Shown: positions 1,664 to 28,286 of the stretch, piece by piece | Position numbering within the stretch: position 1 is the first letter of the stretch | Layout of the letters: each line of letters begins with the position of its first letter | Origin: Kyrpidia tusciae DSM 2912 | Lineage (GTDB): Bacteria > Bacillota > Bacilli > Kyrpidiales > Kyrpidiaceae | NCBI RefSeq assembly: GCF_000092905.1 | Contig: NC_014098.1 | Coordinates: 2,108,001 to 2,172,000 of the forward strand | DNA length: 64,000 nt | Direction of reading: 5' to 3' | Program-made: the position numbers and the translations under genes | Notes under the pieces: model-generated | The model's input: the letters and a program-made list of their open reading frames with translations, nothing else | Told to the model about the DNA's origin: nothing | Database searches by the model: none

Positions 1664-1693
1664 TACTTGAAACATATACATCTGTTTCAAGTA
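1664..1693 (-). ncRNA. hairpin at the IS607 right end, probable 3' part of the TnpB guide (omega) RNA
   Basis: A perfect 10-bp inverted repeat (TACTTGAAAC at 1664-1673 and GTTTCAAGTA at 1684-1693) straddles the tnpB stop codon and ends 3 bases before the predicted element boundary. In IS605/IS607-type elements the guide RNA covers the 3' end of tnpB and continues through the right end, so its guide would be copied from the flanking DNA below position 1660. Placing this hairpin in the RNA scaffold is inference from that architecture. A terminator is unlikely because no T run follows on the minus strand. Confidence 0.45.
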
Positions 1694-2988
1694 CCCGTCC
1701 CTTGCGGGGCAGGGGCGCCGGTCTTACCCAGTTGCCTAGTGCCGGCTTCCCGTTTCATCGAAGACCGCCCGGCCAAGTCGGGTCTTACATCCTCTCCACG
1801 GGCGTTTTTCGTCTCCGGTCCACTCCCGGCGACGGCGACCGCAAGAGCCGCCAGATTCCGCGCCGCATTCTCGTCCCGGTCCATCACCGTCCCGCATACG
1901 TCACATCGGTACACCCGTTCCCAAAGCGGAAGGATTTCCTTGATCGCCCCGCACCTGGAGCAGGTCTTGGAACTGGGATACATCCTGGGGGCCTGGACGA
2001 GACGGGACCCGTACCACTCGCATTTATACCGCAACTGCCGTCTCAACTCCGCCAGCCCCGCGTCGTAGATCGCCCGGGACAATCGCCGGTTCCGCCCCAT
2101 CCCAGCCACATTCAGGTCTTCCACCACGACGGTGCCGAACGTGGTCGCCAGCCGGTGAGTCAGCTTGTGCATGGCGTCCAAGCGAATTCTCGCCACCCTC
2201 GCGTGGGCCCGGTTCAGACGCCGACGGGTATCCTCCCAGTGTCGGCTTCTGCGTTTTCGCCGGACCAACTCCCGGTTCAACCGCGCGATCTTTCGCAATG
2301 CCTTGCGCAAGGGTTGCGGGTTCGGCACCTTCTCCCCCGTGGACAGGACCGCCAGGTGTTTCAGCCCGGCGTCCACTCCCACCACGTCCCGGGGGCGCTT
2401 CGGCCGCCCGGCGTCCCGCTCCACTTCGCAGGTGAAACTCACAAACCACCGCCCGCCTTCCCGGGAGACGGTCGCCGATAGAATCCGCGCCCGGTCACTT
2501 TGCACCCGCTCCAAGAGCGCCGTGGTCATCTCGTGCGTTCTCACCCGCCCGATCCGGGGCAAAACGACGTGGCTTTTGTCGTCCACCCGGATCGCTCCCG
2601 TCGTGAACCGCACTGATTCCCGACCCCGGCCCTTCTTGCGGAACTTCGGAAACCCCACCCGACGACCCTTCCGCTTCCCGGACCGGCTGTCGAAAAACGC
2701 CTTCAGCCCCCGGGCCAGGCCGTTCAGCCCCGCCGAGTACGCTTCCTTGGAATTCTCCCGCCACCACGGGGCGACTTGTTCCTTCTGCCGGTTCCACTCC
2801 CTCCGAAGGGCCGCAAGCGTCCACGGCACTTCGACGTCTTCGCCTCGTTCTCTGGCCTCCAATCGCTCTTTTACCAATGCCAGCCCCCAGTTAAAGGCAA
2901 ACCGCCGGGCTCCGCTGTGGGAAGCCAACATCCTCTCCTGATGCGGCGAAGGATCGAGTGCAAAGCGGTACGCCTCAAGCGCCTTCAT
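1687..2988 (-). CDS. tnpB: TnpB, RNA-guided RuvC-type nuclease of an IS607 element
   Basis: A 433-residue TnpB with all three RuvC acidic residues visible: D in VGVDAGLKH, E in VVVEDLNVAGM and D in MDRDENAARN. The zinc ribbon CSRCG...CDVCG is intact. The N-terminus (MKALEAYRFALDPS) has the usual beta strand plus a PSPHQERML-like helix. The start is ATG 2988 with GAAGGA upstream; the frame is open further upstream but that part is antisense to tnpA. It overlaps the tnpA stop by 4 bases (ATGA), as in other IS607 elements, so the pair is probably translationally coupled. TnpB proteins cut DNA guided by an RNA from the element end. Here nothing in the protein looks broken. Confidence 0.93.
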   Translation of the reverse strand: MKALEAYRFALDPSPHQERMLASHSGARRFAFNWGLALVKERLEARERGEDVEVPWTLAALRREWNRQKEQVAPWWRENSKEAYSAGLNGLARGLKAFFDSRSGKRKGRRVGFPKFRKKGRGRESVRFTTGAIRVDDKSHVVLPRIGRVRTHEMTTALLERVQSDRARILSATVSREGGRWFVSFTCEVERDAGRPKRPRDVVGVDAGLKHLAVLSTGEKVPNPQPLRKALRKIARLNRELVRRKRRSRHWEDTRRRLNRAHARVARIRLDAMHKLTHRLATTFGTVVVEDLNVAGMGRNRRLSRAIYDAGLAELRRQLRYKCEWYGSRLVQAPRMYPSSKTCSRCGAIKEILPLWERVYRCDVCGTVMDRDENAARNLAALAVAVAGSGPETKNARGEDVRPDLAGRSSMKREAGTRQLGKTGAPAPQGTGT

Positions 2989-3563
2989 GATTCCTTCCCA
3001 TCCTTTTTTGCGGCGGTCACAGCCCGCAAAGCCCGATTCCGTGCTCCCCGTCGGCCGTACAACCGTGCGCAGAACGATGTCAAGACCTCGATCATGTCCC
3101 GGACCAGATCGTCGCGGGTCTCTCCGGAATCCACCACCACGATGTGACGGCCCTGAGCAGCCAGTGCAGATTCCAGGTACTCCACGCCAAACCTCGCCAG
3201 TCGATCCCGGTGTTCCACAATGATGGTCGTCACCCGCGCATCCGCCAAAATACGCCGGAGCTTTGGACGTTTCCCGTTCATCCCCGATCCGACCTCCGTC
3301 ACCACCTCGTCCACGACGAGATCTCGCTCGGTTGCCCACTGGGTGATTCGAGACACTTGCCTGTCCAAGTCACTCCTCTGGTCGTGAGAGGACACCCGGG
3401 CATACACGACCGTCCGGCCATCTTTACGGCTCGGAGGGACATCCACCAGGATCGTGCCGGATTCGGTCTGACGGGCGGGTACAGGCAGCTTGCCGTCTTT
3501 CCACCAACGCCAAGCGGTCATGTAGGAGATTCCTTGTTGCCTAGCCCAATCGGAGAGTTTCAT
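2985..3563 (-). CDS. tnpA: TnpA serine recombinase of an IS607 element
   Basis: A 192-residue IS607-type transposase. An N-terminal MerR-like DNA-binding domain (MKLSDWARQQGISYMTAWRW) precedes the serine recombinase catalytic domain (VVYARVSSHDQRSDLDRQ, with the nucleophilic Ser after YARV). The conserved recombinase segment EHRDRLARFG lies about two thirds along. ATG 3563 is chosen because the family consensus begins there; a TTG five codons upstream is possible, and neither has a clear ribosome binding site. It lies in front of tnpB with a 4-base overlap. IS607 recombinases insert circles at GG dinucleotides, which fits G-rich sequence at both boundaries. Confidence 0.92.
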   Translation of the reverse strand: MKLSDWARQQGISYMTAWRWWKDGKLPVPARQTESGTILVDVPPSRKDGRTVVYARVSSHDQRSDLDRQVSRITQWATERDLVVDEVVTEVGSGMNGKRPKLRRILADARVTTIIVEHRDRLARFGVEYLESALAAQGRHIVVVDSGETRDDLVRDMIEVLTSFCARLYGRRGARNRALRAVTAAKKDGKES

Positions 3564-3605
3564 GAGACGATTGTACAACAGAAATATATGTTCGTCTATA
3601 GATGT

Positions 3606-4136
3606 TTATGAACTTCCAGGCTGTTGATCCCCCAACTCTTTTTGTATCTGCTTGTAGGACTGTTCGAAAATATATCGCCGAACGAAGCACTCGCGTTCAA
3701 GATCGGTCAGCGCCTGGTCCAGCACCTCGTACAGCCGTTCCTTGAGGGCCAGACGGATCAGCCTGGCCATCGCCTCATCTTCCGCCGACGGCACAGACCT
3801 CTGGGCCGTCCGGTCCGACACGGCTGTTTCCAGGCTCACGGCCTCCCGGAAAAACACGTGCTTGCCGCCGTACACTTTTCTGGCGACAAGGGTTTTCAGC
3901 CGGTTGTGCAGGAACATCTTCGCGAAGCCCTGGAACGGGCGCCCCGGCCGGTATTCTTTCACGGCGTTCCACAGTTCGATCCGCAAAACCTGAATCACTT
4001 CGTCCTCGGTATCGTTCGGGAGCCAGTATTTTGCGGCCAGCTTCTTCATGAGCGGTTGAAAGCGCGAGGCTAGTTCAGCAAATGCGTCCGGGTCTGTTTT
4101 GGCCTAACAGGCTAGCGCCGTGACACCGTCGTCCAT
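3606..4136 (-). pseudogene. sigma-70-family RNA polymerase sigma factor, broken by a nonsense codon and by IS607
   Basis: The frame starts at ATG 4136 behind AGGGGGG (4150-4144). It reads MDDGVTALAC, meets TAG at 4106-4104 (codon 11), and then continues AKTDPDAFAELASRF. The region after the stop has sigma region 2 features (LASRFQPLMKKLAAKYW, DEVIQVLRIELWNAVKEYRP) and region 4 features (LTDLERECFVRRYIF, SYKQIQKELG). The helix-turn-helix is cut after KELG, where IS607 begins. A CAG to TAG change would explain the stop. The next start, ATG 4049, would lose the first part of region 2. The gene lies behind a long structured leader. It resembles small SigH/phage-like sigma factors; its regulon is unknown. 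Confidence 0.8.
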
Positions 4137-4143
4137 AAAAAAT

Positions 4144-4167
4144 CCCCCCTTCGCCTTATTGGCGGGG
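4144..4167 (-). promoter_or_regulatory. hairpin sequestering the sigma-factor ribosome binding site
   Basis: The minus strand reads CCCCGCC, AATAA, GGCGAAGGGG, then ATTTTTT and the start ATG 4136. The G-rich right arm contains the whole Shine-Dalgarno sequence (4150-4144), so folding would block ribosome access. The T run right after it also makes the hairpin terminator-like. Confidence 0.6.
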
Positions 4168-4173
4168 AGGGAG

Positions 4174-4196
4174 AAAAAAACGGCTTTTCGCCGTTT
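4174..4196 (-). terminator. intrinsic terminator in the sigma-factor leader
   Basis: On the minus strand AAACGGC, loop GAAA, then a complementary arm is followed by seven T. It lies 38 bases before the sigma-factor start codon, so it would stop transcription before the gene unless an alternative fold prevents it. This is the typical layout of an attenuator or of the 3' end of a free-standing small RNA. Confidence 0.8.
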
Positions 4197-4501
4197 GAGG
4201 TGGGTTGAACCGTTCGATTATGGTCGATCATGTGAGTGTAAGGCTAATAGATTCAAGAGTTGGGATTAAGGGGAAAGCCTCCCTACCGTCGGCTTCTCCC
4301 CGCTTCCCCTGATCCTACCAACGGGTCGGTCAAGAGCTTTCACGGCATATTCTCGCCTCACTGCGGTATTCGACGATCTCTTGACCTCCCCCTCAAGGTC
4401 TCAAACTGCAAAGAGCCTTTTTAACCCTGTCCGCCCCAATAACTGCCTGGGGCTTTAAGGGAGCCCTTCTTTCTTTGGTCATACCGGGGTCAAACAGAAT
4501 A

Positions 4502-6883
4502 CTACCTGCCGGAAACGGCACCAGTCGCCGTGGGAGCCGGGGATCTGTCCCCGCGGTTGACCTCGTCCGACCCGTCCGTGCCCTGGGGCATTGCCGGATT
4601 CGCTCCGGGCACGACCGGTTTCAAGTGCAGGAATGCCCGAATCACTCCCAGTGCCAGAGGCAGAACACCGACGACAATAAAGACCGTATCCGGCACGATC
4701 CGTGCCCAGAGCAATGTGTAAACGAAGGGTTGGCGATAGAATGCCAGCTGACGGGCCGCCCAGAATCCCTGTTCCATCGTGGTTCGCAATTGCTCGACCC
4801 CGACCGGAAACAACGTCACCAACGCCATGCCGACAAGTCCAAGATTGAGTCCCCACGCTGCCCACTTGAACAATTTTTCCGGCCAAAACGCTCCCGGAAC
4901 CAACCGGCGCAACGAAAACAACATGAGCGCGATGGCCAGCATCCCGTACACACCCATCATGGCGGTATGGCCATGGGTGGCCGTTAAGAACGAACCATGT
5001 TCGTAATAACTGACCACCGGCAGGTTGATCAGAAAACCGAAGACCCCTGCCCCGACCAGGTTCCAGACGGCCGTGGAAATCAAGAACCAGAAGGGCGCCT
5101 TATATGGAAAAACCCGGCCTCCGTCGCGAAGCATGCGGTACTGATCGTATGCTTCGGCAGCCAGCAGCGTCAGCGGCACCACCTCCAGGGCGGAGAAGCA
5201 AGCCCCCAGCCCCAGCCACATGGCCGGATCACCGATCCAATAATAATGGTGGCCGGTCCCGATCACGCCGCTTCCCATCAGGATCAAGATTTGAAAATAC
5301 AGGGCCCGCACCGTGGAGGCCCGGGTCACCAGACCCATGGTCACCAACAGGAATCCGATGGCCACCACGGCAAACACTTCAAATACGCCTTCCACCCACA
5401 GGTGGATCACCCACCACCGCCAGTAGTCCGAGAAGGTAATGTGGGTTGTCGGATTCACCAAAAATGCGAAGATATAGAAACCAGGAATCGTCCACGCGCT
5501 GTAAAACAGCAGGTGCACGAGACCTCCCTTGTCCGTTTCCCGGCGCAGGCTATCCCGCAACCCCCGCCATACGATAAACAACCAGATGAGCAGCCCAGCG
5601 ACCAGCAAAACCTGCCATACCCGTCCCATCTCTAAATAATTCCATCCCTGATTGCCGAACGTGAACCAGAACTTGCCCAGCAGCCCCTTGGCACCCAACC
5701 ATTCCCCGGTAAAGCTGCCTGCCACCACGGCCACCAGAGCCCAGAACAGCACGTCCACCAGGATCCCTTGGCCTTTCGGCTCTCGACCACCGACGATCGG
5801 GGCGATGAAAAGACCCATGCCCAGCCAAGCCGTGGCGATCCAAAAGACGGCCGACTGTAAATGCCACGTTTTGGCAATATTGAAGGGAAGCCAATCAGCG
5901 ATGGGCAGGCCGTAGAATCCGCTTCCCTCCACGTAATAATGAGCCATCAATCCACCCATCAGGACCTGAAAGAGAAACACCAGGCAGACAACGACAAAAT
6001 ATTTCCCGGTCTTTCTCTGGCTCACGGTGATCCCCTCCCTGTCCGGGCGGAGATCCGGGAACGAGGAGTCATAGGCACTCTGCATTTGCAATTTAAAATG
6101 GTTGTACACCCAGAGGATGAATGCCAGCATAAGAATGAGAAAAGCGACACTGGCCGCACTCCAGAACACGGCGTGGAATGTGTTCTCGTTCCCCGCTCCC
6201 GGCTCGTAGGGCCAGTTGTTGGTGTACGAATAGTCAAGCCCTGGACGGTTCACGGCGGAGAGCCACGCCGTCCAGAAGAAGTAGTCGGCCAAGCTGCGGA
6301 TGTCCTCCGGGGACGCCTGGTTTAAACTTCCCGGCTGGAGTCCCCGGTCGGGATTGCCCAGGGTGAAAAGCTGGTTGTAATACGCTCGAACCTGATCCAA
6401 GGCCCGGCTTTGAGCCGGCGTGAGCGTCAGCGTGTCGGTTGCGGGATCGTAGCGGTTGACCCGAATCTCCGACTTCACCGCCTGGGACACCGCGGCCTGA
6501 CGGTCAGCAGTGAGCTTATCGTAAGAATTGCCGTACATCTCGTTCGCTTTCTCGTCCCTCATGGCGACAACCACCAAGTGCAGAGTCTCCGCCGTGAAAT
6601 CGGGACCGAAAAAAGTGCCATTCCCCAGGATCGAACCGTAATCCATCAGGTCGTATTTTTGAAATACCTGTTGTCCATGAAGAAGATCTTGTTTCGACAC
6701 CAGCGGTTGGTGATCCGTTCCGAGCATCGTGGGAATCGGTGCTTTTTCCTTATAAATCCAAAATCCTCCGGCCAACAGCACGGTGAAGCTGAGCAGGACG
6801 ACAACTAATAGAATGTGTTTCCACAAGCCCGAGTCGCCGTGGTTTGACCTCCCCCGAAGAGCATCCACCTTAACCGCAGACAT
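4502..6883 (-). CDS. norZ: quinol-dependent nitric oxide reductase (qNOR)
   Basis: A 793-residue membrane enzyme that reduces NO to N2O with quinol electrons, for detoxification or denitrification. One N-terminal membrane helix (residues about 20-43) is followed by a cytochrome c-like periplasmic domain lacking a heme-binding CXXCH (about 50-235). A heme-copper-oxidase-like bundle then runs to about 770. Histidines expected for heme and FeB binding are visible in KTWHLQSAVFW, VIHLWVEGVFEVF, GTGHHYYW and THGHTAMMGVYG. Start ATG 6883 has AAAGGGGG 7 bases upstream; the longer frame to 6943 has none. It stands alone, with an Fnr-type palindrome about 90 bases upstream. The structured leader of the sigma-factor gene begins just after its stop. 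Confidence 0.95.
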   Translation of the reverse strand: MSAVKVDALRGRSNHGDSGLWKHILLVVVLLSFTVLLAGGFWIYKEKAPIPTMLGTDHQPLVSKQDLLHGQQVFQKYDLMDYGSILGNGTFFGPDFTAETLHLVVVAMRDEKANEMYGNSYDKLTADRQAAVSQAVKSEIRVNRYDPATDTLTLTPAQSRALDQVRAYYNQLFTLGNPDRGLQPGSLNQASPEDIRSLADYFFWTAWLSAVNRPGLDYSYTNNWPYEPGAGNENTFHAVFWSAASVAFLILMLAFILWVYNHFKLQMQSAYDSSFPDLRPDREGITVSQRKTGKYFVVVCLVFLFQVLMGGLMAHYYVEGSGFYGLPIADWLPFNIAKTWHLQSAVFWIATAWLGMGLFIAPIVGGREPKGQGILVDVLFWALVAVVAGSFTGEWLGAKGLLGKFWFTFGNQGWNYLEMGRVWQVLLVAGLLIWLFIVWRGLRDSLRRETDKGGLVHLLFYSAWTIPGFYIFAFLVNPTTHITFSDYWRWWVIHLWVEGVFEVFAVVAIGFLLVTMGLVTRASTVRALYFQILILMGSGVIGTGHHYYWIGDPAMWLGLGACFSALEVVPLTLLAAEAYDQYRMLRDGGRVFPYKAPFWFLISTAVWNLVGAGVFGFLINLPVVSYYEHGSFLTATHGHTAMMGVYGMLAIALMLFSLRRLVPGAFWPEKLFKWAAWGLNLGLVGMALVTLFPVGVEQLRTTMEQGFWAARQLAFYRQPFVYTLLWARIVPDTVFIVVGVLPLALGVIRAFLHLKPVVPGANPAMPQGTDGSDEVNRGDRSPAPTATGAVSGR

Positions 6884-27856: not shown

Positions 27857-27937
27857 GCCGAGTCGCGGAAAATCAGGAGGAACTGCAAACAAAACTCCCC
27901 ACGTCTCCAACAAAGCGCGAACAACTTCGCACTTTCT

Positions 27938-28286
27938 TGGAGGCGAGGGGAGTCGAACCCCTGTCCGAGAACCTCGCGACACCGGCTTCTACGGGTGTAG
28001 TCGTTTTACTGAGGTTCGCCGTCAGAGCGCGAAACGACACGCTCTCTTTCGGGCTAGCCTGCTGTTATCTCGTCAAAGGCCCACAGGCAAAGGCGCTTCG
28101 ACCAGCCCGCGAAGTTGGCGCCCATCCAAGCGGTGCGGGCGACCGCTCGGTGAACGTCCGGCATTAAGCAGCCAGAGCGAGTTCTTGTTTATTCGCGTTT
28201 CTTTTACGCCCGCGTTGGTACGTGGCCGCAGCCCCACGACCCGCCGCCGATGCTCGAACAGTCCCCGTCGAAACCAATACGCCCCC
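27938..28286 (-). ncRNA. ssrA: transfer-messenger RNA (tmRNA)
   Basis: The 5' end GGGGGCGTATTGGTTTCGAC (28286 downward) and the 3' T-arm GGGGTTCGACTCCCC plus CGCCTCC (ending at 27938) form the tRNA-like acceptor stem; CCA is not encoded. The mRNA-like part (near 28155-28205) reads GCG AAT AAA CAA GAA CTC GCT CTG GCT GCT TAA, giving the tag ANKQELALAA. tmRNA with SmpB rescues stalled ribosomes and tags the nascent protein for proteolysis. smpB lies immediately upstream on the same strand, the usual Firmicute order. Confidence 0.97.

Follow-up and report, generated by a model that had tools for sequence, protein, structure and literature searches.

In the window analysed here, a stretch of 64,000 nucleotides from Kyrpidia tusciae DSM 2912, the minus-strand region between a qNor gene and a sigma-like gene is best explained, at a probability of about 70%, as a decayed ISL3-type MITE that carries a degraded copy of a widely distributed folded-DNA element, a putative single-stranded DNA (ssDNA) promoter or priming site. 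The direct observations behind this reading are the family to which the element belongs, its covariation, its strand and gene geometry, an enrichment of -10-like sequences, insertion sequence (IS) ends with target duplications, and an empty sigma leader; from these we infer that the motif is used by RNA polymerase on ssDNA and has a priming role.

A degenerate ISL3-type MITE upstream of a sigma-like pseudogene

The stretch 4144-4480(-) had been presented in a preliminary description as one structured RNA, and every pairing named there was found at its coordinates by direct reading. The perfect 9-bp pairing joins GGTCAAGAG (4386-4378) with CTCTTGACC (4336-4328), and the 7-bp pairing joins CCGTTGG (4324-4318) with CCGACGG (4292-4286), one G-U included. 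The terminator-like hairpin sequence AAACGGCGAAAAGCCGTTTTTTT is present at 4196-4174, as is the hairpin CCCCGCCAATAAGGCGAAGGGGGG, covering the Shine-Dalgarno (SD) sequence of the sigma gene, at 4167-4144. No long open reading frame (ORF) lies between the end of the qNor gene (4502) and the sigma start (4136), in agreement with the description of the stretch as gene-free. Folded as RNA, 4144-4480(-) has a z-score of -3.7, with 0 of 100 dinucleotide shuffles equally stable. While the foldings stand, the single unit does not, as the stretch is composed of an insertion (4417-4182) and an older sigma leader (4181-4137).

The insertion is a degenerate ISL3-type MITE located between the qNor gene and the sigma-like gene, now a pseudogene. 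This 236-bp element (4182-4417, minus strand) contains neither an ORF nor a transposase and is thus non-autonomous; it has the inverted ends GGCTCTTTGCAGTTTGAG / GGCTTTTCGCCGTTTGAG and carries the structured core described below. On the minus strand its limits read GGCTCTTTGCAGTTTGAG... at the left and ...CTCAAACGGCGAAAAGCC at the right. The left inverted repeat (4402-4417, minus strand, outer edge 4417; CAAACTGCAAAGAGCC on the plus strand) shows two mismatches against the right one (4182-4197, minus strand, outer edge 4182; CAAACGGCGAAAAGCC). The MITE reading follows from a full-length alignment of the element with the right ends of the ISL3 elements L066, L236, L237, L003 and L103, with which it has ISL3-type terminal inverted repeats and subterminal sequence in common. 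A second hairpin, GCCGAC..AGGGAGGC, at 4270-4309(-), is shared with the ISL3 relatives in this alignment. As GCCGAC..GGGAGGC, it follows the core in the window (4270-4309) and in L066, L236, L237, L003 and L103, and a similar hairpin occurs in IS256-type elements (L024) and in an IS1202-like copy of the same genome. The element resembles ISL3 insertion sequences and MITEs in its inverted ends GGCTCTTYG.. and AT-rich targets, and full relatives that carry the core have 8-bp target repeats; it differs from them in having no transposase and no clean 8-bp target duplication, its flanks reading GTTAAAAA versus GTTTTTTT. It is a single copy in its own genome, in which a query with the ISL3 transposase found none at E<=1e-60. 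A broken relic of the element (L154), with the same right end GGCGAAGAGCC and the boundary GGCGAARAGCC, is found elsewhere in G002, a genome of the same genus. Longer ends, TTATTGGGGCGG / CCCCGCCAATAA, obtained by extending the repeats into the flanks, were rejected because their right-hand part is the sigma leader of this congener. An imperfect inverted repeat, TTATTGGGGCGGACAGGG / CTCCCTCCCCGCCAATAA, lies just outside the element (4420-4440 / 4155-4172).

The same congener accounts for the apparent terminator. Its homologous sigma leader (..GTCC|GTTTTTTTCTCCTTCCCCGCCACAAGGCG..ATG) lacks the 236 bases and keeps GTTTTTTTCTCC insertion-free, which identifies 4181-4137 as the older leader, and the look-alike at 4174-4196(-) as the right inverted repeat of the element joined to a T-run that was already there; this part thus matches a known type of transposon end. 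The hairpin covering the SD (4144-4167, minus strand) lies outside the element and belongs to the older leader, with a similar one in the congener. The gene downstream is a sigma-70-like pseudogene (3606-4136, minus strand), with TAG as codon 11 (4106-4104) and its C-terminus lost, and an intact paralogue elsewhere in the genome (L156, 757-1374) has an unrelated leader. The proposal that a cis-acting RNA leader, an attenuator or riboswitch, governs the sigma factor by means of a terminator and a hairpin that hides the SD can draw on the stable fold (z -3.7) and on hairpins that do exist, the SD hairpin also in the congener. Nevertheless, we consider it very improbable: its terminator was made by a transposon end, conservation upstream of homologous sigma genes, as expected of such a leader, is not seen in either the congener or the paralogue, whose leaders are both insert-free, and most relatives of the core do not adjoin sigma genes but lie near conjugation, IS and phage genes. 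Given the insert-free leader of the congener, the broken sigma gene and the unrelated leader of the paralogue, it is unlikely that the structured stretch regulates the sigma gene. Among the neighbouring ORFs examined across the family, sigma-70 region 4 was present in two same-strand ORFs located 5' of the motif.

The alternative offered in the preliminary description, an element-borne structured nucleic acid, proved correct to the extent that the core belongs to a covarying family and lies inside a transposon-type element. Its likening to HEARO or omega-RNA found no support: the core has no Rfam match, and its relatives are accompanied by genes of conjugation, insertion sequences and ssDNA phages. 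The IS607-type element directly behind the sigma pseudogene (1687-3578, minus strand), with a serine recombinase TnpA (3578-2985) and TnpB, has its own RF03015 Transposase-2 RNA at the 3' end of TnpB (1690-1756, minus strand, 58.8 bits). Searching 4100-4520 against Rfam with gathering and permissive thresholds returned chance matches only, consistent with the earlier remark that no Rfam class was recognisable; a search of the phage collection with the window sequence gave no match, and a literature search on IS-borne ncRNA gave nothing relevant. An ordinary tmRNA gene is located in the window at 27937-28286(-).

A covarying core distributed across three phyla

The conserved structured core, a decayed copy of the ssDNA-promoter-like family, occupies 4326-4388(-) and is matched by model R1 with 58 bits (E 2.9e-15); the core pattern has one match in the window versus 0.00 expected. 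Its outer stem P1 is the 9-bp pairing given above (5' arm 4378-4386, 3' arm 4328-4336, both minus strand), whose 3' arm includes a -35-like TTGACC (4333-4328) and which covaries across the family. Stem P2 pairs CGTCG (4371-4375, minus strand; family form CGTGG) with CCGTG (4341-4345, minus strand; family form CCGCG), and one of its pairs is broken in the window copy. Stem P3, the ATACC/GGATAT region (4347-4369, minus strand), contains a G bulge, an A bulge and tandem G-A pairs and is capped by a variable hairpin, with a C-A mismatch in the window copy.

When the window stretch was used as a blastn query, only the core matched, in Burkholderia, Parageobacillus, Alicyclobacillus and actinobacterial plasmids. 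Genome contigs yielded at least 118 stretches with the pattern GAATACCGN{4,34}GRATATGSCGYGAAAGC, and viral contigs 20; as this collection rests on an exact pattern, invariance within that pattern is partly built in and is no proof by itself. The family covers Bacillota, Actinomycetota and Pseudomonadota, and its hairpin is absent from Rfam. Among 59 non-redundant members the covariation score was 0.279, compared with 0.108 +/- 0.010 in shuffled alignments (0/500) and at most 0.169 in slid controls, the covarying parts being stem P1 and the inner hairpin. The core stem is nearly invariant, with one compensatory U-A in F. In the inner stem G-T pairs far outnumber A-C, which indicates that the given strand is the folding strand. 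Among sampled genomes, matches were present in 17 of 398 from Bacillota (E<=1e-4, several of them weak) and, at E<=1e-7 with the seed genomes counted, in 4 of 398 from Pseudomonadota and 1 of 296 from actinobacteria.

Chance palindromes of a transposon remnant, with no common function, are scarcely credible as an explanation. Inverted-repeat ends always fold, and the fold of the element (4182-4417) reaches a z-score of only -1.2 with DNA parameters (-3.0 as RNA), but the conservation of the core across three phyla, its covariation and the positional -10 signal described below refute this explanation for the family; for the window copy alone, which looks decayed, it may be near the truth. That copy has the lowest score of the close matches to model R1, and this score, together with its broken pairs and a 10-nt spacer, suggests a decayed passenger that is probably inactive.

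A second copy of the core in the same genome scores better, with 68.5 bits (C1:869099-869172; L178 6111-6156, minus strand). It is located in a polysaccharide gene cluster and follows an IS1202-like transposase of 439 aa at a distance of 115 nt. Seven Lachnospiraceae loci (L032, L105, L090, L124, L074, L056 and L030) share about 240 conserved nt that surround the core (from -32 to about +205) between differing flanks, as if this block were independently mobile.

Position and strand in conjugative plasmids

A single site (65-69 bits) is present in each of the plasmids F, R100 and ColIb-P9; it lies about 94 nt upstream of the DNA methylase gene in the leading region, on the strand opposite to the leading-region genes. 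These genes are expressed from the transferred strand (PMC7736820, PMC11541004), and so, by this published knowledge, the motif lies on the transferred strand. The family therefore has the position on the transferred strand, upstream of early leading-region genes, that the window copy, a chromosomal MITE, does not have. An enterobacterial neighbour version of the motif matches at least 5000 plasmids.

A similar layout emerged from the wider set of neighbours identified with Pfam, in which the orientation counts are based on crude ORF calls: opposite-strand genes located 5' of the motif encode SSB (5), DNA methylase (4), ParB (4), DUF932 (3), ArdC (2) and an ISL3 transposase, and same-strand genes located 3' of it encode MobC (11), NikA (8) and a relaxase (1). 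Annotated Citricoccus and Glutamicibacter plasmids display the whole layout, and in Glutamicibacter five copies fall within 4.5 kb. The core also adjoins a MobV relaxase gene and occurs on an IncQ-type plasmid with floR (L203, L205).

Small phage-like contigs and transposons

The small viral contigs with the motif are inovirus-like, with Zot or TspB-type proteins, or encode a G2P-type Rep. In those with a clearly dominant strand, the motif lies on the coding strand; the exception is one microvirus (L199, PQ006669), in which a complete copy from 1543 onward lies on the strand opposite to all genes. Relative to genes, the motif is thus on the opposite strand in plasmids and on the same strand in small phage-like contigs. 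The motif changes sides relative to genes between element types but mostly stays on the strand that becomes single-stranded, which in our reading points to a function as DNA rather than RNA. This bears on the possibility that the core functions as an ncRNA of mobile elements, in cis or in trans, and binds, for example, a transposase or host protein. The covarying stems with G-U pairs, the tandem G-A and the bulges, all typical of RNA modules, would suit such an RNA. We nevertheless regard it as distinctly unlikely, because the strand flips relative to genes between plasmids and phage-like contigs yet stays the one expected to be single-stranded, a -10 sequence on the 3' arm is not expected in an RNA body, and inspection by eye revealed no conserved promoter or terminator beside the rod.

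Several transposon types carry the core. In the ISL3 clade L066, L236 and L237, which includes full-length relatives of the window element with a DDE_Tnp_ISL3 transposase, the motif of L066 and L236 is on the other strand than the transposase, at a distance of 25-36 nt from its start, and the flanks show 8-bp target repeats (AAAAATAC in L066, AGATTTCT in L236); the core is missing from most other ISL3 elements examined. It is inside the IS256-type carriers L024 and L144 (ends at -1374/+183) and a DDE_Tnp_IS240-type carrier, L074 (ends -1633/+292, flanks repeating TTTTCACT). Elements that we take to be IS1202/ISNCY-like carry it as well, including the copy at 869,099 of the same genome. IS1202-like transposases were rejected as regular carriers, since among 30 loci the core was present only in that copy. 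In the IS256- and IS1202-like elements, motif and transposase share a strand, which does not fit a role in gene expression and leaves only priming, or nothing.

A promoter-like signal on the 3' arm

Of 132 members, 48% have TANNNT at a distance of 17-32 nt past GAAAGC, with a peak at 24-25, versus 2-11% in upstream and downstream stretches, 13% on the reverse strand and 7% in shuffled sequences; this enrichment was noticed on the same sequences on which it was counted. Model R1 stops before the -10 place, and among 16 diverged clostridial matches found with it, 13 show TATAAT, TAAAAT, TACAAT or TATACT there, although these matches are mutually related and the 13 are not independent cases. Several of them have TTGACC or TTGACT 16 bp upstream of the -10 (e.g. 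TTGACC-16-TATAAT). The clostridial loci with near-consensus -10/-35 sequences (L160-L166, L169, L171-L173, L176 and L177) include some without the CGTGG/CCGCGAAAG part, and some of them show a C-G to G-C exchange in the otherwise nearly invariant core stem; the diverged members are possibly a second subclass.

The -35 side is looser. TTG is present in 75 of 137 P1 arms versus 9 in shuffles, and a fixed -35 box was rejected since TTG is far from universal; most members have no good -35, and the spacers vary (10-16). Predicted pairing dips at positions 20-24. As a family, the members thus place -35/-10-like sequence on the 3' arm of the folding strand; in the window copy the -10-like TAGGAT (4312-4317, minus strand) is separated from TTGACC by a spacer of only 10.

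These observations also bear on whether the motif is a complementary-strand priming site for primase or primosome proteins rather than RNA polymerase, an sso or ssi without promoter function. Its place on the coding strand of inovirus-like and Rep-bearing contigs and its occurrence in small replicons and in IS families, several of which probably transpose through circular intermediates, agree with such a site. The conserved -10 position, the near-consensus promoters of diverged members and the gene placement in leading regions make it rather unlikely. As Frpo does both transcription and priming (PMC7736820), this reading and that of a promoter overlap.

Comparison with known systems

To our knowledge, a handful of enterobacterial sequences account for the known ssDNA promoters, and elsewhere such promoters have been found mainly via BLAST to these. 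The family is best read as a Frpo/ssi-like candidate ssDNA promoter or priming site that is also spread by transposons. The Frpo/ssi elements (Frpo1, Frpo2; ssi2, ssi3; F, ColIb-P9) have a rod-like fold on the transferred strand of the leading region, with promoter elements on the 3' arm, and anti-defence and establishment genes are expressed from the T-strand (PMC9849209, PMC11541004, PMC7736820). One report mentions a 'Frpo (ssi) upstream of ecoGIXM' (PMC7736820), and the family sites of F, R100 and ColIb-P9 lie upstream of the methyltransferase (MTase) gene, where this report places Frpo. Part of the family may already be among the 5 known and 13 putative Frpo sequences of PMC11541004. The family has no sequence similarity to Frpo1 and Frpo2; in place of their AT-rich tip its members share a bulged core, GTGGAATACCG..GAGGATATGCCGCGAAAGC, and it extends over three phyla and to transposons and small phage-like contigs. 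Up to E=5, the MTase site is the only one that model R1 finds in F, ColIb-P9 and R100, and the F site has no long similarity to other parts of the F leading region.

Two further systems share some of these features. The EGeRS1 sequences of pLS20-type plasmids are likewise long inverted repeats that precede establishment genes, ardC among them, but according to their authors they are not ssDNA promoters, since the transferred strand there is the non-template strand (PMC8708921); the core motif, in contrast, is on the template strand of the leading genes. The second is the sso. In rolling-circle replicons, the sso is a strand-specific hairpin that host RNA polymerase reads and that primes the lagging strand. 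By this description, the presence of the core family on Rep-bearing and inovirus-like contigs is a likeness, whereas the gene layout of leading regions points to gene expression too.

Proposed mechanism and significance

In the proposed mechanism, the motif strand would fold into a rod when the DNA is single-stranded, and this rod would mimic a duplex promoter. The conserved bulged core and stem P1 may position the host RNA polymerase holoenzyme at and above -35, with the 3' arm providing the -35/-10-like sequence and a bubble at -10. Template would be the 5' arm together with the flank on that side, and the transcript would run into this 5' flank. The resulting RNA would express the other-strand gene located 5' of the motif, in conjugative leading regions and in one ISL3 transposase clade, and/or prime the complementary strand. 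For Frpo transcripts, gene expression or second-strand priming is established (PMC9849209, PMC7736820). More tentative is the idea that one folded-DNA module, unrelated in sequence to Frpo1/2, serves conjugative elements, small phage-like elements and transposons across three phyla and, in an ISL3 clade, is coupled to the transposase such that the transposon is switched on upon arrival as ssDNA, which we consider conceivable and somewhat short of probable.

What is new is the breadth of the motif and its occurrence in transposons, the type of function being already known. A "riboswitch"-like candidate in the window turns out to be a transposon relic beside a pseudogene. A short covarying core across three phyla would reveal leading regions, and hence anti-defence genes, without a known oriT, and its presence inside insertion sequences leads to the testable idea that in some transposons the transposase is expressed, or the second strand made, in time with single-stranded stages.
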